From contig JANXAL010000131.1 of the NCBI GenBank assembly GCA_025062325.1, positions 1 to 51,622 of the forward strand: DNA of 51,622 nt, given 5' to 3'. Of this stretch, positions 14,451-26,171 are shown one piece after another. The notes below the pieces were generated by a model that was given only the letters and a program-made list of their open reading frames with translations, did no database searches and had not been told where the DNA came from. Each line of letters opens with the position of its first letter. Position 1 is the stretch's first letter. This DNA comes from Roseiflexus sp. Its GTDB lineage: Bacteria; Chloroflexota; Chloroflexia; Chloroflexales; Roseiflexaceae. The translations under genes and the position numbers were made by a program.

Positions 14451-16745
14451 ATGACGACTACGCAGCCGCCGCTCGTCGGCGAAATCTGTGAACAACCGGT
14501 CAACGAGGCAGAACAACGAAGCGAAGTATTGGCAAACCTGCTGGATGTTTCGACATACCTCGTATCGGTGCTCGACCCGAACGAATTGTTTGCCGGGCTT
14601 GTCCGGCGCGTCGTCGAAGTCGTTCCTGCAGTCCAGGCTGGTCTCCTCTGGATCTACGACCGACACCAGACGACGTTGCACCTCGAGTCGTTCTATGGTC
14701 TGGATTTCGGTCCGGCAAGTGAGGCAGTGTGTCGTCTGCGTTTGCGTCCCGGCGAAGGGCTGGCGGGAGAAGCGCTGCGACGCGGTGAGCCGCTCCTGAT
14801 TGAGACCCGCTCATCGTACCGCGATCTCGCACGGCGGGTCAGTCCGCGCAGTGAACCGGATGTGTCTGCGTTCCTTGAATGCCTCCCGCGCGAATTGACC
14901 GCTGTGATCCTGCCGTTGCGCATCGGCGCGGAAGTGATCGGAGTGCTGGAATTGATGAACCTCGGCAACCGACCGCCGCTGCGACGCACCGATCTCCAGG
15001 TGCTGCAGACATTTGCCAATCTGGCGGCGGGCGCAATCAAGAACGCCCAACTCCACGCACAGATGCAGGCGCATCAACGTCGCCTGGAGGCATTTGGGGC
15101 AATTGGCACGGTCATCAGCACGGCTGCCGATCTCGATGAACTGCTGCGGAACGTTCTGGACGTCGTGCTGGGCGTAGTGGATGCATCGGTCGGCATTCTG
15201 CTGCTGCTTGATCCTGGTCGTGCAGTGTTGCAACTCGGCGCGTGGCGCGGCGTCCCGTCTCAGTTTATTGAGCAGCAGCGCGAGATTCCTGTCGCGGGAG
15301 CAATGTGCGAGGAAGCGGTACGTTATGGACAACCCATCCGCCGTCCGTTGATTGCTGAGTCGAGCGAGGACGTGTTGATCGAGGCAGGATTGTCGAGTTG
15401 CGCGTATGTACCGCTTCTTGCCGGCGGAACAGTGGTGGGCGTGATTGGAATCTACGGCGATCCCGCTTTGCCGGAGCGTATCGACGTGCAGACGCTCATG
15501 ATGATGAGCAACCTGATTGGCTTTGCCATCGCCAATGTGCGATTGTATCAGGAAAGCCATATCGAACGCCGAAAATTGACTGCCGTGATCAACAGCATCG
15601 TTGAGGGAGTGGTGCTGTGTGACCGTCTTGGGCGGTTGGTGCTTGCCAATCGCAAAGCAATGGAACTGCTCTCATCCGACTCATTCCCCTACCAACAGCC
15701 AATCAGTTCGATGGCGGACTTTTACGCCATTCGCGATCTCGACGGACGTGCGTTGCCGGTTGATCGCTTGCCGCTGGCGCGCGCGCTGGCTGGCGAAGTG
15801 TTCCACGATTATCGAGTGTTATTGCGCGGCGCCAGCGGTGAGGACACGGTGATGAGCTTTAGCGGCGCCCCTGTTTACGGCGAAATGAACACCATCGAGG
15901 GCGCTGTCGTCATTTTCCGCGATATTACCGAGCACCAGAAACTGGAACGGGCAAAGGACGACTTTCTTGCGGTTGCAGCACACGAACTGCGCAGTCCGCT
16001 CGCAGCAGTGCGCAGTTACGCCGATTTGCTGATTCGTCGTGAGCAGCGCCGCGACCGCGATAAGGACGACACCGATCTGCGCGGCTTGACCATTCTGGCG
16101 CAGCAGGTCAGCCACATGCTGCGCCTGGTGGATAATCTGCTCGATATGTCGCGCCTCGATGCCGGTCTTTTCAGCCTCCAACTCCAGCGTGTCAATCTGG
16201 TTGCGCTGACCCAGCAGGTGATCGATCAGTTGCGCCCGACTATCGGCGAACGCGAGGTGACGCTGACGAGCGATGCGCCAGATCTGCTGGTGACCTGCGA
16301 CCCGCTGCGTATTCGCCAGGTCCTGACCAACCTGCTGGTCAATGCCGCGCGCTATAGCGGCTCAGGTTCGCCAATCGAAGTGGCGGAGGTCGTTATCCGG
16401 TCTGACGTGCTGGCCAAGCGGTATGCGCACCAACCGCCAACCACGCTGCGATCATGGCTGATCGGCACGCAGCGTGAACCGCGACCACTGGCGCTGATTA
16501 CAGTACGCGATTATGGGATCGGGATGTCGGAAGAGACCATGCAGCGCCTATTCCGACGGTATGCACGCGGTCGTCAACGCACTGGCGAAGGGCTTGGATT
16601 GGGATTATATCTCAGTTACGAGCTAGTCGTGCGTCATGGCGGAACGATCTGGGCAGAGAGCGTCGAAGGGCGCGGCAGCACCTTCTATGTTGCGCTTCCG
16701 CTAGAAGGTCCGCCGCAGGCAAATGGTTCTGCGCAAACGGCGTAA
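14451..16745 (+). CDS. Cytoplasmic sensor histidine kinase 1 (GAF-GAF-PAS-HisKA-HATPase)
   Basis: A 764-residue soluble two-component sensor. It has two GAF domains (about 35-200 and 212-370), a PAS-like domain (about 375-500), a HisKA helix with the phospho-acceptor in AAHELRSPLAAV (about 511) and an ATPase domain. The ATPase domain shows the N box NLLVNAARYS, G1 DYGIGM and G2 GEGLGLGLYLS. No membrane span or receiver is present. The ligand of the GAF domains is unknown. GGAGG lies upstream of the ATG. A zinc-ribbon membrane protein follows closely in the same direction and may be co-transcribed. No response regulator gene is near, so the partner is encoded elsewhere. Confidence 0.92.
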   Translation: MTTTQPPLVGEICEQPVNEAEQRSEVLANLLDVSTYLVSVLDPNELFAGLVRRVVEVVPAVQAGLLWIYDRHQTTLHLESFYGLDFGPASEAVCRLRLRPGEGLAGEALRRGEPLLIETRSSYRDLARRVSPRSEPDVSAFLECLPRELTAVILPLRIGAEVIGVLELMNLGNRPPLRRTDLQVLQTFANLAAGAIKNAQLHAQMQAHQRRLEAFGAIGTVISTAADLDELLRNVLDVVLGVVDASVGILLLLDPGRAVLQLGAWRGVPSQFIEQQREIPVAGAMCEEAVRYGQPIRRPLIAESSEDVLIEAGLSSCAYVPLLAGGTVVGVIGIYGDPALPERIDVQTLMMMSNLIGFAIANVRLYQESHIERRKLTAVINSIVEGVVLCDRLGRLVLANRKAMELLSSDSFPYQQPISSMADFYAIRDLDGRALPVDRLPLARALAGEVFHDYRVLLRGASGEDTVMSFSGAPVYGEMNTIEGAVVIFRDITEHQKLERAKDDFLAVAAHELRSPLAAVRSYADLLIRREQRRDRDKDDTDLRGLTILAQQVSHMLRLVDNLLDMSRLDAGLFSLQLQRVNLVALTQQVIDQLRPTIGEREVTLTSDAPDLLVTCDPLRIRQVLTNLLVNAARYSGSGSPIEVAEVVIRSDVLAKRYAHQPPTTLRSWLIGTQREPRPLALITVRDYGIGMSEETMQRLFRRYARGRQRTGEGLGLGLYLSYELVVRHGGTIWAESVEGRGSTFYVALPLEGPPQANGSAQTA

Positions 16746-16804
16746 CTTTTCCGTTGTCAGAACGTTCTAATAGAGCGGACGCTTGTTCGCAAGGAGATGG
16801 GTTG

Positions 16805-18145
16805 ATGATCCGCTGTCCGCAATGCCAAGCTGAACTTGCCGAAGGTAAACGCTTTTGCCCTCAGTGCGGCACGCGCCTCCCTGAACCACCAGGTGACGCG
16901 GGGCGCACCATGCTGCTCCCGCCGGAGGGCAACGCCGGAAAACCGGCGGCGCCTCCGTCAGCAACCATAGAGGCCGGGAAGACGCTCGTGGTTCCGCCAG
17001 CGTCAGCAGGCGATGCAGGACGCACCGTGTTACTGCCGCCGGAGAGCGAACCGAGCACATTAGCGACGCCTCCCTCAGCCCCAGATGCCGGAAAGACGAT
17101 CGTGTTTCCGTCGGCGCCTCCTTCCGCCGCTTCATCTGGCAGCACTGAGAAGCTGACAACGTCCTCTCACCCGCCTCAGCCATCACCAGCGCCGACAGCG
17201 GGCGGGGCGCCCGCCTTCTCCCAACCGTCATCAGGCAGCGGATTTGGACCGCCCTCCTCCCCGCCGCCGCTAGCACCGCCAACATCATCGGAACCAAGCA
17301 GAGAATTGGGACTGCCATCATCCCCATCACCCATCGCTGGAAGCGGGTTTGGCTTGCCCTCCTCCGCGCCATCGCCAGCAGCAGGCGGCTCCGTCACTCC
17401 CCCATCTGCGATGACATCCGCTAAAAAGGGACCCAACTGGCTGCTGATCATTGGCATTCTTCTTGGCGTTTTAGCGCTGGGATGCCTCCTGGCGCTCGGT
17501 GGTCTGTACATTATTAGTCAGCAAGCGGCTCGGTCGCTCGGCACTGCCGTCTCCGGCACCGCCGTGAGCGGTAACAATCCGCCGGGGGCGACCAATTTTC
17601 CGAATGTGCTGCTGCGCGACTCACTTGCCAGTGAAGAGAGCAGCCAGTTTGCTGCCGGACGAACCGACAGCGGCGACTATCGGTTCGAGAATGGCGCCTT
17701 CGTCATCGAGGCGCTTACGGCGGATCAGATCGTCTGGCAGATAGCGGATATTACGGTTGATGACGGATCGTTCGAGATCGAAGCAACGGTCAGCAAGCCG
17801 CGCAGTGCGGCCGCAGCGCTTCTGTTTCGCTATCAGGACAAGCAGAACTTCTACGTCCTAAGCATCGACGGCAGGGGACGCTACCGCGTCGCACGTCTGG
17901 TGGACGGTAATTTCTCCGCCCTGCGTGATTGGGAGTCTTCTCCGGCAATCAATTCCGCCGGTTCACCTAATCGGCTGAAGGTCGAGATGGTTGGCGACTC
18001 GCTGACATTTTACTGCAACGGTCAGCGTCTCGCCGATCTACGCGATAGCGCCTTCCGGAGCGGCAATCTAGCATTCGGTACGGAAACTTTCAATGAAGGA
18101 CCGGGTATCGTTCGGTTTACGAACCTCCTGGTGCGTGGTCGATAG
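16805..18145 (+). CDS. Zinc-ribbon, Pro/Ser-rich, single-TM protein with extracellular concanavalin-like domain
   Basis: A 446-residue protein of unknown function. Residues 1-25 form a zinc ribbon (CPQCQ and CPQCG, 15 residues between the pairs). Residues about 30-205 are low-complexity Pro/Ser/Ala with four copies of an (A)G(R/K)T-hydrophobic-P motif: AGRTMLLPPE, AGKTLVVPPA, AGRTVLLPPE, AGKTIVFPSA. One membrane span follows (WLLIIGILLGVLALGCLLAL). The last 190 residues, outside, look like a concanavalin/DUF1080-type beta sandwich (FEIEATVSKP, ALLFRYQDKQNFYVLSIDG). The start at 16805 has AAGGAG upstream. The repeated Thr in a fixed context could be kinase targets; that is inference. It lies 59 bp after kinase 1 and 27 bp before ugd. 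Confidence 0.7.
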   Translation: MIRCPQCQAELAEGKRFCPQCGTRLPEPPGDAGRTMLLPPEGNAGKPAAPPSATIEAGKTLVVPPASAGDAGRTVLLPPESEPSTLATPPSAPDAGKTIVFPSAPPSAASSGSTEKLTTSSHPPQPSPAPTAGGAPAFSQPSSGSGFGPPSSPPPLAPPTSSEPSRELGLPSSPSPIAGSGFGLPSSAPSPAAGGSVTPPSAMTSAKKGPNWLLIIGILLGVLALGCLLALGGLYIISQQAARSLGTAVSGTAVSGNNPPGATNFPNVLLRDSLASEESSQFAAGRTDSGDYRFENGAFVIEALTADQIVWQIADITVDDGSFEIEATVSKPRSAAAALLFRYQDKQNFYVLSIDGRGRYRVARLVDGNFSALRDWESSPAINSAGSPNRLKVEMVGDSLTFYCNGQRLADLRDSAFRSGNLAFGTETFNEGPGIVRFTNLLVRGR

Positions 18146-18172: not shown

Positions 18173-19585
18173 ATGAAAATCATCGTTGTTGGCACCGGTT
18201 TCGTCGGTCTGACTCACGCGGCAGTCTGCTCGGAGTATGGTCACGAAGTCTATGCATACGATATTGATCGTCAGCGGATCGAGGCGTATCGATCGTGTCG
18301 CCCTGAAGCGATCGAGCAGTATGTTCACGAACCAGGACTGACGAACATCATTGTGGAGAACCATGGACGATATCTCTTCTTTGTTGACGACATCGAGCCG
18401 GTGATTGAGGGGGCCGATGCGATCTTCCTCTGCTTGCCAACGCCACCCAAGCCCGATGGCTCGTCGGACCTCAGCTACTACTTCGCTGCAGTGAACCATC
18501 TGGCGGAATTGCTGGCTCGTCGCCGGGATCAGCGCCGGGTGGTGGTGATCAATAAGAGTACGGTGCCTATTGGGACAGCGCGGCAGCTCGAGCGCGTGCT
18601 GCGCGACTACCGCGTGCCTAATGCAGGAATCGCCTCGAACCCTGAGTTCCTCCCTGAGGGCGACGCGGTCGAGAAGTCACGCCGTCCCGACCGTGTGGTC
18701 GTTGGCGCCGATTACGAGGAGGACTTTCGCATCCTGCGGCGGATCTACTCACAGTTCGTCAACCACGTGCGGATTCGCTACATCGAGACCACACCGGAGA
18801 CGGCAGAGGCGATCAAGTACGTCGCCAATACGCTGCTGTTAACATATATCTCATTCTGGAACGGGGTCGGCGCGCGTGTTGCCGAGACATTTCCCAATGT
18901 CATTATGGAAGATCTAAAGCGCGGCGTCACGGCTGATTCGCGTATTAGCACCTGGGGATCATATGTCTCAAATGGCGCTGGCGGCTCATGTTTCGGAAAG
19001 GATATTCAGTCGCTCATTTATCAACTAAAGACGGCAGGGCAGTCAGTCGATATTCTGCAATCGGTCTACGGCATTAACGAGTACCAGAAGACCTACCTGA
19101 TTGATCGCGCGATCCGGGAAGCCGGGGTCAGTTTCAACAACAAAACGGTCGCCTTGCTGGGGCTAGCATTCAAACAGCGCACCAACGATATGCGCGACTC
19201 GTCGGCGCTCAAAGTGGTCGAGGCGCTGTTGGGCAGGGGCGTGCGCGCCATTCGCGCTTACGATCCGATGGCACTGCGTGAGGCGCGCAAGTTCTTCGAC
19301 CCTGAGAAGAACCATCTGTTCGAGCGCATTTCCTACCATACCTCGGTGCGCGAGGCGCTCACCGGAACCGATATGCTCTTCATCTCCACCGATTGGGAGG
19401 AATTTCGCGGTCTTTCGCGCACGATTGAAGAGACAGTCTCACCGCCATACCTGGTCATCGACGGTCGGCGGATGATTCCCGATTACGCGGAACTAGTCGC
19501 CGCTGGCTATGGGTATCTCGCCGTCGGTTCGCCATACATGCCTCCAGGCGAAGTACCCTCGCGCTGTGCTCGACCCCGTGTCTAA
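18173..19585 (+). CDS. ugd: UDP-glucose/nucleotide-sugar 6-dehydrogenase
   Basis: A 470-residue NAD-dependent enzyme that oxidises a nucleotide hexose (typically UDP-glucose) twice at C6 to the uronate. The Rossmann motif VVGTGFVGLTHAAVC is at the N-terminus, and family motifs STVPIGTARQLE and NPEFLPEGDAVE follow. The catalytic Cys is in GAGGSCFGKDIQSL (about 272). The C-terminal UDP-binding domain opens with ALLGLAFKQRTNDMRDSSA. GAGGAG precedes the ATG. It probably serves exopolysaccharide or glycan synthesis; UDP-glucose as substrate is the default guess. Confidence 0.92.
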   Translation: MKIIVVGTGFVGLTHAAVCSEYGHEVYAYDIDRQRIEAYRSCRPEAIEQYVHEPGLTNIIVENHGRYLFFVDDIEPVIEGADAIFLCLPTPPKPDGSSDLSYYFAAVNHLAELLARRRDQRRVVVINKSTVPIGTARQLERVLRDYRVPNAGIASNPEFLPEGDAVEKSRRPDRVVVGADYEEDFRILRRIYSQFVNHVRIRYIETTPETAEAIKYVANTLLLTYISFWNGVGARVAETFPNVIMEDLKRGVTADSRISTWGSYVSNGAGGSCFGKDIQSLIYQLKTAGQSVDILQSVYGINEYQKTYLIDRAIREAGVSFNNKTVALLGLAFKQRTNDMRDSSALKVVEALLGRGVRAIRAYDPMALREARKFFDPEKNHLFERISYHTSVREALTGTDMLFISTDWEEFRGLSRTIEETVSPPYLVIDGRRMIPDYAELVAAGYGYLAVGSPYMPPGEVPSRCARPRV

Positions 19586-22054: not shown

Positions 22055-24757
22055 ATGCGCGGGCTCGTATCGGTTATTCGCTCCCAGATCCGATACAAAA
22101 TTATCTTTCCCTACCTGGCGCTAACGCTTGTCGTGATGATGGCAGGAGCTGCAATCGCCGCTGGTTTAGTAGCGGCCTCATGGGAAGAGCGACTGCAGAA
22201 CCAACTGGCGCAGGTAGCGCGCAACACGACGGACGCACTCGTGCGGCGCGAACGCAATCATCTCGAGTTTCTGCGTCAAGTAGTCTTTGCACCTGCACAT
22301 AACGATATCCCAGCAGTGGCAGATGCGTTTGCCAGCGGCGACGATGATCAGGTGACTCGGGCGCTCGATCCATATTATCGGTTCGGCGTCGGAAGCGTTA
22401 ATCTGGACTTTGATCGGATGATTGCCTTTGATCGCAGCGGCAAAACCCTGGTCGACTGGCTCCGTGTTTCGGAAAACCCTGCCGACCCTCCCCAGCGCAT
22501 CCTGACGACCGATCTCTCGAGTCTGGATTTCGTACGGTTGATCGTTACAGGTGGAACCATCGATGGGAATGACAAGTTCTCGGGTCTGATCTATTTTGCG
22601 CCTGATGTGCAACCATATTTTTATACCGCTGTGCCAGTGCGCAAGAACAACCAGGCGGTCGGCGGGATTTTGATTGCCGTCAAGTGTGATCGTTTGCTGC
22701 TGTCGCTCGAACGCAGCAGCCAGGCGGCAGTAACGACGTTTTACGACCTGTCTGGTCGAGCGATCAGCACCACTCTGTTGCCACGCGCAGAGCTGAAGGC
22801 GCTCGACATGCCGCCGCAGGTCGTGCAGGCGTTGTTTAGCGGTCAGGCACAGTCGATTTTCACGGTCGAGTTGCGCCAGCGTGGATATCAACTGGCGTAC
22901 AGCCCGCTGGTTATCGCTGGCGTTCAGGTCGGGTACTTCTCGGTCGGTCTCTCGCGCGATTTTCAGGTGCAGCAGTTGTCACTGAGCCGGAATGCGGTCA
23001 TAGTGATTGCCATGGCGCTGGCAGTCGGATCGGTCGTCTTAGGGTACCAGATTGCGCGCCAAATCACACGACCGCTGGCGGACCTGGTGGCGACAGCAGA
23101 AGCAGTGACTGGCGGCGATCTTGAAGCGCGCTCAACTGTTATGTCGCCCGATGAACTGGGCCGTCTGGCGCTGGCGTTCAATCAGATGACCGAGCACCTG
23201 GCGCGGCTGTATCGCACCAGTCGCGATCTCAATCAGGCGATTGAGGTGACCCCCGTGCTAAAGGTGACCGAACGTGCAGTGCGGTCCTTACTGCCCGACA
23301 CCGACGTGCTGGCGTTGATTGCGGAGGAAGATGCGCTTCGATACCATATCGATGACGAACTGCCAGGCGTTGTCCGCAGCCTACGGCACGTTCGGGTGCC
23401 CATAAGCGACCCCCTGGTGCGCGAGCTTGCCAGAATGCAGCGTGCGGCGCTGGTATCCCCCGCTGAAGAACCGCGTCTGATCTCGTTTGGTCTCGTGCAG
23501 GTCGCCGGGTATCAGAGCCTGTTGTTATCACCGCTAGTTGTGCAGGGAGAACCAGCCGGCGTCCTGATCCTGGCGCATCGCGAACCTGGCGCCTTTAGCG
23601 AAAGCATCCTGCCATCGCTGAATGCCATCGCTAACATGGCGACCAGCGTATTGTACAATGCGCTGCTTTTTGATCGGGTTCAAAGTGAGGCATTGCGGCG
23701 CCGCGCCATCCTCGAGTCGATCGCCGATGGGGTTGTTGTTCTCGATCGTCAGCGGTACATTGTGATCGTCAATCGTGCGGCTGAACAGATGCTGGGCATA
23801 CACGACTGGCAACTCGTGCGACGCTCGTTTGATGAAATCCCGCTGAAGCGCGTGGAGATCCGGCACGAAGTGTTTCATGAGAATGGCATAGGACGTCGTG
23901 ACCATTTTCGTCTTGGCGATCGTGTGGTGAGTCTGAGCAGCGCACCGGTCGTCACTGACGAAGGAGCACAGATCGGCGAAGTGGTAGTGTTGCACGATAT
24001 TTCGGCTGAAGCGGCAATTGATCGCGCGAAAACAGAATTCATCGCAACTGTTTCCCACGAATTGCGTTCTCCGCTCACAGTGATCTATGGCTATACTGAT
24101 CTTTTGTTACGAGGACTGGCTGGCGAGTTGAGCGGCAATCAACGCGATTTGCTCGAAGCAATACGGAATCGCGTCGAGTTGATGAGCAATATTGTCAAAA
24201 ATGTTGTTATGGTCGCCAGTATTGAGGCTAATTCTCTCCAAACTGAACTGGCAGCGCAGGATGTACGGCGCGCAATTGAAGAAGTGGTTGCGCCGATGCG
24301 CAAGGCGTTCGAGTGCAAAGGTCTAACATTGACCGTGAATACGCCCGATGATCTGCCACCGGTGCGCGCAGACCGCGAACAATTGATCATTATGCTTGGA
24401 CATTTGATTGATAATGCGCGCCGCTATACCCAACATGGCGAGGTAGTCATTACCGCGCATCGGCGCGATGATGACATGGTCCAGATCGACATCGCCGATA
24501 CTGGTCCTGGTATTCCTGCCGACCAGCTACCTCGCTTATTTACAACTCGCTTCTTTCGTGTCGAAGGCAATAATTCACCCGAGCGCGGGAGCGGTCTTGG
24601 TCTGGTGATCACACGACAACTGGTTGAGCGCCACGGTGGAAAAGTGTGGGCGCACAGCGACGTTGGGCGCGGCAGTACATTCAGCATAGCACTCCCTATC
24701 GCCCATGAGTACACGAACGCCATTTCCAGCCCACGCGCAACGCAGGCGACAGCCTGA
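22055..24757 (+). CDS. Membrane sensor histidine kinase 3 (Cache-like sensor, HAMP, GAF, PAS, HisKA, HATPase)
   Basis: A 900-residue two-pass membrane kinase. TM1 (about 18-42) and TM2 (about 312-332) flank an external sensor of about 270 residues that resembles a double Cache domain. HAMP ([16 protein letters not shown]), a GAF-like region (about 400-545) and PAS ([20 protein letters not shown]) follow. HisKA carries [20 protein letters not shown] (His about 668). The ATPase shows [19 protein letters not shown] and GSGLGLVIT. The start ATG 22055 has AGCAGG upstream; GTG 22025 is an alternative. The 3' end overlaps the next gene by 53 bp, suggesting coupled translation with that surface protein. 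Confidence 0.88.
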
Positions 24758-26171
24758 ACCGCTGCGCTGGATTATCGCCTTAGCTTTGCTGCTGGCACTT
24801 TTCTCAATCTGCTGTGTGGCAGAAGTCGTGATGCGCGCCCTCGTTCCCTCCAATGTAGCGACAACGCTGAATCTGCTCTCGAAAGATCGCGCCGATTACA
24901 GCCCCTGGCTGATACCCCTTGATATTGCAGCCATCCCGCCTGAACTTGCCGCCGCCGAAGCCGCCGAGCGCGCAACCGCTACCAGTATCGCTGCGCGGGG
25001 AACGCCGACCCCGGTCATCGTCGGTAGCGTTCCAACCGCTCTGGTGCCGGTGGTGCCGCCAGCGCTCGATGCGCCTACCCCAACTCCTGGCGATGTGTTG
25101 ATCGTTGAACCACCAACAGTAACGCCGCGTCCGGTTGGCGTTATTCCTACTAGTACACCGGTCATTGCGACAATCGCGCCAGTTACGAATACGCCAACCG
25201 CGCCGTCGGTGAGTCAACCAACAATCACCAGCACCCAGATCGCCCAACCAACCGATACGCCGCGAGCGGAACAGCAACCGACGGCAACATCTATTCTCCA
25301 GCCAACCAGTACAGTCCAACCGACCAGCACGCCACGACTGCCATCACCTACGCCGCTGCCGCCAACGGCGACGTTCTCGCCAGTTATCCCAACAGTTGTC
25401 CCAACCGAGACGCCTACGCCGGTTCCAACGAACACACCAATGCCACAGCCGACAGATACACCGGTTCCGCCAACGCCAGTGCCGCCAACGCCAGTGCCGC
25501 CAACGCCCACGTTCACCCCGTCGCCCACGTTTACTCCGTCGCCAACGGAGACGCCGACACCCAGCCTAACACCGACGCCAAGCCTAACACCGACACCCAG
25601 CCTAACACCGACGCCAAGCCTAACACCGACACCCAGCCTAACACCGACGCCAAGCCTAACACCGACACCCAGCCTAACACCGACGCCAAGCCTAACGCCG
25701 ACGCCGAGCCTGACGCCGACACCTAGCCTGACACCGACGCCAAGCCCGACGCCGACACCGATCACGGGCGTCCGCGTGATAAAGAGCGCATCAAGCAATC
25801 CTATTCAGGTCGGTCAGACAATGACCTGGACGATTGAGGTGATCAATACAGGATCGGCAGGTGTGACAGTGACCCAGATTTTCGATACTTTTGAGAGTCC
25901 GCCGACTGCGCCTCAGTTCAACATCGCTTCTTGCGGCAGCCCGCAGGGAGGCATCTGTACTCGCAACTTACCGCGCGAGGAAGTCACCTGGACAGGCGCC
26001 GTTTCACTGGCGCCCGGACAAACCATGCAACTCCAGATAAGCGGGGTCTTCCTGAGCCAGCCTCCGCCCGGCAGCGATGCCCGGTGCAATATTCGCTGGG
26101 AGGTCACAGTGCAGGAGATAGGCACAATTCCATCAGAGACGCCCGCACTGTGCGTCGAGGTATTACCGTAG
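24705..26171 (+). CDS. Membrane-anchored Thr/Pro-rich surface protein with C-terminal DUF11-like domain
   Basis: A 488-residue protein with one N-terminal membrane span ([20 protein letters not shown], about 23-42). A long outside stretch follows, dominated by PT/TPTP sequence (about 100-350) with a strict TPTPSL array. It ends in a beta domain of about 125 residues, [20 protein letters not shown] onward, resembling DUF11/Ig-like repeats of cell-surface proteins; Cys residues in [11 protein letters not shown] may bridge. The rod plausibly spans the cell wall. Function is unknown. It begins within the 3' end of kinase 3 in another frame. Confidence 0.78.
25555..25760 (+). repeat. 18/36-bp coding tandem repeat (TPTPSL)
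   Basis: An 18-bp unit coding TPTPSL is repeated about eleven times. Through most of the tract two unit variants alternate (CCGACACCCAGC and CCGACGCCAAGC), giving a 36-bp higher-order repeat with near-perfect identity. This suggests recent slippage or duplication. Confidence 0.9.

Follow-up and report, generated by a model that had tools for sequence, protein, structure and literature searches.

A zinc-ribbon membrane protein of Roseiflexus with repeated T-x-x-hydrophobic-P motifs is a candidate docking platform for FHA proteins

The window, as we call the whole stretch of 51,622 nucleotides of a Roseiflexus sp. contig that was analyzed, encodes a one-span membrane protein next to a histidine kinase. 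The main features of the locus are:

14451..16745, + strand: histidine kinase with GAF-GAF-PAS-HisKA-HATPase_c architecture, a conserved neighbor (Pfam, locus comparison)
16805..18145, + strand: membrane protein of 446 aa with zinc ribbon, Thr repeats, one span and beta sandwich (ORF, profile scan, structure model)
16814..16879, + strand: zinc ribbon, residues 4-25 (PF13240, E 1.3e-7)
16880..17440, + strand: linker rich in Pro, Ser, Thr and Gly, also in Ala, putatively cytosolic (sequence; KKGPNW ahead of the span)
17441..17509, + strand: membrane span, residues 213-235 (hydrophobicity; directly after KKGPNW)
17603..18142, + strand: outer beta-sandwich domain, nearest solved fold CBM66 of levanase (AlphaFold2; VIA-align)
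18173..19585, + strand: gene of the UDP-glucose/GDP-mannose dehydrogenase family (Pfam; neighbor in six fetched loci, L101-L105 and L107)

The gene for the membrane protein runs from an ATG at 16805 to a stop codon closing at 18145. This start was preferred over the TTG at 16754 of the mechanical ORF list because the frame of a relative (L073) opens just one codon ahead of the matching Met. The ribbon carries the cysteine pairs C4-x2-C7 and C18-x2-C21 and scores 31.6 bits against a curated cut-off of 25 for Zn_Ribbon_1. We infer from the sequence that ribbon and linker face the cytosol. The Pfam Pkinase profile found no protein kinase domain at E values up to 1, so the protein is not a transmembrane Hanks-type kinase. 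The original prediction of a zinc ribbon, a Pro-rich linker, one span and a beta sandwich is borne out by Pfam, by hydrophobicity and by an AlphaFold2 model of the outer part, which is a beta sandwich with a mean pLDDT of 92.7 (alignment of 28 sequences). The predicted adjoining histidine kinase is also there and ends 59 bases upstream of the membrane-protein gene. Elsewhere in the window (24705-26171) lies a long protein with TPSLTP-type repeats and a DUF11 match, which is another kind of Thr/Pro repeat.

The linker contains four copies of a short threonine motif, found in the sequence and by a DNA pattern:

16898..16924, + strand: copy 1, AGRTMLLPP (T35)
16973..16999, + strand: copy 2, AGKTLVVPP (T60)
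17015..17041, + strand: copy 3, AGRTVLLPP (T74)
17087..17113, + strand: copy 4, AGKTIVFPS (T98)

The copies had been described as four evenly styled AG[RK]T-hydrophobic(3)-P repeats; they are alike in style, but their threonines are unevenly spaced, with steps of 25, 14 and 24 residues, and copy 4 closes with P-S where copies 1-3 close with P-P. The DNA pattern for AG-x-T-hhh-P, where h is hydrophobic (GCNGGNMRNACNNTNNTNNTNCC), matches four times in the 4.73-Mb genome, every time within this gene, while the same pattern reversed gives no match. Amino acids agree better among the copies than codons do: copies 1 and 3 share 8/9 residues and 4/9 codons, copies 2 and 4 share 6/9 residues and 5/9 codons. 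By shuffling, this linker alone is expected to hold 0.47 T-x-x-hydrophobic-P sites against the four present (P 0.0005).

The family is widespread in this order of green filamentous bacteria. Matches to the window protein occur in 77 of 82 genomes, many through the outer domain only, and members come from Roseiflexus, Kouleothrix, Chloroflexus, Oscillochloris and relatives of Candidatus Viridilinea. Motif conservation was assessed on 37 ribbon-to-span linkers of families f1, f2 and f3, with the duplicates L122/L215 and L123/L205 collapsed and with family f4 and genus g9 outside the set. These linkers contain T-x-x-[VILMF]-P (TxxPhiP) at 92 sites for 339 Thr and the corresponding SxxPhiP at 8 sites for 336 Ser (Fisher P 8e-22, indicative only, as the rows are related). 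Composition shuffles give a mean of 13.1 TxxPhiP sites and a maximum of 25 in 1000 rounds. At least one site is present in 30/37 linkers and at least two in 22/37; the seven linkers without any are mostly short, several of them from Oscillochloris-type genomes. Wherever a linker has three hydrophobic residues followed by Pro, the preceding residue is Thr (69/69), and under a looser pattern, in which the three may include Ala or Thr, it is Thr in 65/67 cases. Position +2 is V, L, I or M in 72/92 TxxPhiP sites, +3 being hydrophobic by definition of the pattern. When a single linker represents each of 13 clades, counted before the double-listed L122/L215 and L123/L205 were removed, 27 sites are observed against 4.2 in shuffles (maximum 12 in 2000), with a site in nine clades and none in four. 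Since rows are related and copies are often in tandem, the figures for 37 linkers and 13 clades are descriptive.

Copy number ranges from 0 to 7 or 8 across the order, and tandem duplicates are frequent among the copies. In Chloroflexus linkers, PPTVVIPPDQ or PPTTIIPPDR recurs as many as seven or eight times, and the genus of the window has RTVLLPPE and KTMV[AVT]PP repeats, in which Ala or Thr can stand at +3. Where +1 and +2 are not hydrophobic, Thr, the +3 residue and Pro persist, as in TQQVPP and TVRVPP (besides TVMLPP) of genus g3, in TQTFPA or TQAFPT (besides TVVLPP) of the Viridilinea genus and in the single TQALPR or TQAIPR kept by 7/8 family f3 linkers; a second g3 genome has TQQVPA and TVRVTP. 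Judged from these sequences, the constant parts of the motif are Thr, a mostly hydrophobic +3 and Pro at +4, that is, a T-x-x-hydrophobic-P core. The conservation among orthologs on which the original prediction had staked itself thus holds in three families of the order, with Thr at 69/69, but it is this core and not AG(R/K)T that is conserved.

The extracellular stalks of the same proteins, which like the linkers are rich in Thr and Pro, served as an internal control. They contain one TxxPhiP site for 143 Thr against 61 for 236 Thr inside, counted over those 27 of 39 linkers whose stalk could be cut by rule; this subset is without the window's own stalk and includes the motif-free L123 and L205, and the L073 stalk extends slightly into the outer domain. 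Outside the T-hhh-P sites, the hydrophobic share near linker threonines is 0.23 at +3, 0.13-0.15 at +1, +2 and +4, and 0.29 at +8, so that there is no clear +3 signal beyond these sites because +8 exceeds +3.

The search for the motif in other Chloroflexota proteins, which the original prediction had proposed, gave a mixed outcome: orthologs carry it across three families and kinase fusions described below hold a faint echo, but a DNA scan of 82 genomes for PPTV-hh-PP revealed no second protein with this pattern, to which looser variants are possible. The scan returned 30 sites in 12 genomes, 23 of them inside the orthologous gene; the other seven look by eye like chance matches (five in frames of 17-158 aa, one each in frames of 395 and 320 aa), and reversing the pattern as a control gave seven sites as well. 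Among the zinc-ribbon, FHA and kinase frames of the host genome (66 loci, some cut at an edge) there are two extra single T-hhh-P sites, one in a frame seen as both L028 and L057, where it is maybe upstream of the start, and one in L066; none of these frames has the motif in tandem. Outside the order, 7/8 zinc-ribbon relatives examined have no TxxPhiP in the linker. L285 (G092:C410), which lies outside the order and has the same architecture, contains one TGPLP and six tandem PTL-type repeats such as DAPTLMAVP, whose Ala or Thr at +3 breaks the hydrophobic +3 rule and points to a different one. The family can dispense with the motif, as evidenced by the seven linkers in the order and the seven relatives outside it that lack one. 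Readings as a TonB-box-like or LPXTG-like motif were considered and dropped.

The outer domain begins at about residue 267. The closest solved fold to its model is CBM66 of Bacillus subtilis levanase (4azz_A) with a VIA-align Z of 20.9 and an rmsd of 2.2 over 155 aligned residues at 19% identity, after which come galactocerebrosidase, GH43 and further concanavalin-like domains, at Z 19 or lower. The match to CBM66 in sequence is weak (residues 317-423, phmmer E 0.0009), and 3keto-disac_hyd (PF06439) stays below its curated cut-off in the window protein with 17.6 against 26.8 bits; the relative L285 passes with 39.1 bits. The modeled fold suggests that the ligand may be a sugar.

In a phylum sample of 301 genomes, the family profile matches 124 at 1e-8, many through the outer domain only. 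A CBM66-like outside part sits on transmembrane Hanks kinases of other Chloroflexota (L297-L307, L312, L315, L316). This fusion set of 14, assigned by motif or eye, comprises the 12 kinase-reading frames among 18 long frames picked by length, together with L315 and L316, included because shorter stretches already read as kinases. The Pfam Pkinase domain is present in 10/10 scanned fusions with E values no worse than 7e-40, and one of these has an outer domain that aligns with its counterpart in the window protein at 29% identity (E 4e-20). Transmembrane Ser/Thr kinases thus use a relative of the outer domain on their outside. The juxtamembrane stretches of the fusions have eight TxxPhiP sites against 2.8 in shuffles, of which 6 in 1000 reach eight, and three SxxPhiP sites. 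The TxxPhiP sites fall in 6/14 fusions, two of which (L297, L298) are near-identical, and in sequence they would be a weak echo of the linker motif. No histidine-kinase fusion was seen among 20 frames inspected by eye, where the kinase fusions are to Ser/Thr kinases. In L309-L311 a related outer domain ends frames that read by eye as trypsin-like proteases.

The zinc ribbon recurs in the host genome. Seventeen distinct frames, that of the window protein included, carry Zn_Ribbon_1 over the cut-off, and by raw count ten of them have a kinase, FHA or PP2C domain as well (shared frames account for eight, Pfam for two). One cluster (G000:C27, 22.6-30.0 kb; L032, L039, L034, L013) encodes two PP2C proteins, one Hanks kinase and one FHA protein, all with ribbons. 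Zinc ribbons may mark this kinase/phosphatase/FHA signaling set. Around the membrane-protein gene itself, neither an FHA nor a Ser/Thr kinase gene is among the conserved neighbors. The histidine kinase is found within 6 kb upstream in 17/19 loci of the order that have more than 4 kb of upstream sequence (absent in L106 and L123), at 48-96% identity over 723 aa or more. In 10/10 other loci examined, a hisC-like gene (by eye) lies between the two genes. This weakens a strict operon argument; the conserved neighborhood leaves room for a role together with the histidine kinase.

For most bacterial FHA proteins no ligand is known, and the host genome has 15 FHA matches beside 21 kinase matches. One of the FHA proteins is of the FhaA type (L002:886-1725, G000:C35; FhaA_N E 5e-32, FHA E 2e-23), and its nearest solved chain in sequence is GarA. 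This protein is found in 72/82 genomes at E below 1e-30; the remaining ten give weaker FhaA matches, maybe partial copies or other FHA proteins. In 50/50 copies examined (L216-L265) a T-x-x-hydrophobic site precedes the FHA domain, against a mean of 15.7 and a maximum of 27 of 50 in linker shuffles, and with one copy per genus the count is 27/27 against 8.6 (maximum 16). The threonines share one column in 48/50 copies and are offset by one in the other two; every copy has I, M, F, L or V at +3 and 38/50 have Gln at +1, whereas SxxPhi occurs in 13/50 linkers and Glu at -2 in 17/50. Forms include ETTQVI, DTQVIP, MTMIM and others, T-Q-V-[IM] being the commonest. In the AlphaFold model, which says little about docking as it is unphosphorylated, the stretch around the site is disordered (pLDDT under 50) and undocked. 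Together, this site and the linker counts show that FhaA-type and window-family linkers have the Thr motif in common and are otherwise variable. From sequence, the FhaA linker threonine is possibly a GarA-like self-switch, and we infer that FhaA recognizes the membrane-protein motif.

Published FHA ligands provide a yardstick. PMC6733907 describes GarA, OdhI and DgcB as having self-binding tails that are hydrophobic at -3, +2 and +3 and carry Glu at -2 and Ser at +1, and it terms the Val at +3 of DgcB crucial; in the account of PMC4037201, the +3 selectivity of FHA domains is termed controversial. In GarA, as described in PMC5448819 and PMC12321487, the ETTS phosphorylation site precedes the FHA domain on the N-terminal side. 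All four window copies are hydrophobic at +2 and +3 (L/L, V/V, L/L, V/F), and all four have Gly in place of the GarA/OdhI/DgcB-type Glu at -2. Reading the threonines as phosphorylation or docking sites is strengthened by the FhaA linker site, the kinase fusions and this literature on FHA ligands. In the open-licence literature we found nothing on the window protein or on FHA and zinc-ribbon signaling in Chloroflexota, and no phosphoproteome for Chloroflexus (C. aurantiacus included) or for the host group at large, which has many kinase and FHA genes.

Three other readings account for part of these data. The protein could be a membrane accessory of the neighboring histidine kinase, its outer domain sensing a ligand and passing the signal to the two-component system, with the repeats as spacers or a minor tether. 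The same kinase (48-96% identity, 723 aa or more) adjoins in 17/19 loci and the gap in the window is 59 bases, which fits; yet a hisC-like gene intervenes in all ten loci examined, and the fusions among the 20 inspected frames go to Ser/Thr and not to histidine kinases, so we regard this role as unlikely. The same conserved kinase enters a reading in which the repeats are a short linear motif that works without phosphorylation, a Thr-hydrophobic(3)-Pro strand in extended conformation that joins a beta-sheet at its edge or fills a Pro-binding groove of a partner, possibly of this kinase. A disordered linker with hydrophobic triplets is suited to strand addition, and according to PMC6733907 the FHA cleft can also bind an unphosphorylated tail. 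The presence of Thr before hhhP in 69/69 cases speaks against it, as do clades that lose the hydrophobic +1 and +2 yet keep T, +3 and P, and we hold it to be slightly less likely still.

Finally, the repeats could be drift of a Pro-rich tandem array in a neutral low-complexity linker, the protein being simply an outer anchor that binds carbohydrates or surfaces. A copy number of 0 to 7 or 8 and the CBM66 fold are what such an anchor would show. The composition shuffles and the stalk control are not, nor are codons that differ between copies and a core shared by separate genera, which leaves this reading improbable.

The reading we favor, and consider probable but far from assured, is that the window protein is a membrane docking platform of a Hanks-kinase/FHA system, in which linker threonines become phosphorylated and dock FHA proteins in several copies. 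It builds on what is observed of the architecture, of the motif and how it is conserved across the order, of the FhaA site, the fusions and the neighborhood, and it proposes phosphorylation, FHA binding, the topology and control by the outer domain. Against it stand the motif-free linkers inside and outside the order, the eight fusions without TxxPhiP, the SxxPhi sites in FhaA linkers, the missing Glu at -2, the debated +3 selectivity, the many tandem duplicates and a conserved neighbor that is a histidine kinase. The outer domain, with its carbohydrate-binding-module fold, would set when signaling occurs. The disordered inner linker would present several T-x-x-hydrophobic-P sites, a Ser/Thr kinase would phosphorylate their threonines, and FHA domains, such as that of the FhaA-type protein, would bind the phosphothreonine while a second pocket receives the hydrophobic +3 residue. 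The FhaA-type protein itself has one comparable site beside its own FHA domain. Multiple copies would allow multivalent recruitment of readers at the membrane, and the zinc ribbon may connect the protein with other zinc-ribbon members of the kinase/phosphatase/FHA set.

More tentatively, and doubtful as a whole, the protein may be a bacterial multi-site phosphothreonine scaffold that senses glycans or surfaces: phosphorylated tandem sites would draw FhaA and other FHA proteins away from their self-ligand site and concentrate them at the membrane, copy number would tune the response, and the layout would be a prokaryotic counterpart of MDC1-RNF8. With up to seven or eight repeats, Thr over Ser and a likeness to the near-invariant FhaA site, the linear motif is in any case a concrete candidate FHA ligand. 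If the docking platform is real, bacteria would have in it an evolvable example of docking through multivalent phosphothreonine.

The animal protein MDC1 works at DNA breaks and is not known to be a membrane protein. According to the description in PMC11884936, RNF8 and Pellino use their FHA domains to read its TQXF motifs, four in human MDC1 and multiple in orthologs. Several copies of a short Thr motif, a hydrophobic +3 and a Thr-specific reader are the points of likeness. As described there, ATM phosphorylation and FHA binding are proven for MDC1, whereas for the window protein phosphorylation and FHA binding are proposed; MDC1 also has Gln at +1 and no Pro rule, and the likeness is one of layout only, with no homology claimed. 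GarA, OdhI and DgcB, as presented in PMC6733907, PMC5448819 and PMC12321487, likewise have Thr followed by a hydrophobic +2 and +3. Window copies 2 and 4 share Lys at -1 with the DgcB peptide, and the FhaA linkers of the order include ETTQVI forms near the ETTS layout of GarA. In these accounts each of the three proteins has one site region, on the chain that also holds the FHA domain, whereas the window protein has several sites and is a separate membrane protein, whose motif has Pro at +4 and no Glu at -2. PMC12077195 tells of a Mycobacterium case in which FhaA docks on a juxtamembrane segment of PknB. This phosphorylated cytosolic segment beside the span, recognized by the FHA domain of FhaA, has a candidate equivalent in the window sites. 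The PknB segment is part of a kinase, whereas the window protein has a zinc ribbon instead of a kinase domain, although a related outer domain does top a kinase in other Chloroflexota. On the outer side, CBM66 of Bacillus subtilis levanase (4azz, 4b1l, 4b1m) has the same fold with a weak sequence match. Unlike the levanase module, the outer part of the window protein has no attached enzyme and is membrane-anchored, and the modeled likeness is one of fold.
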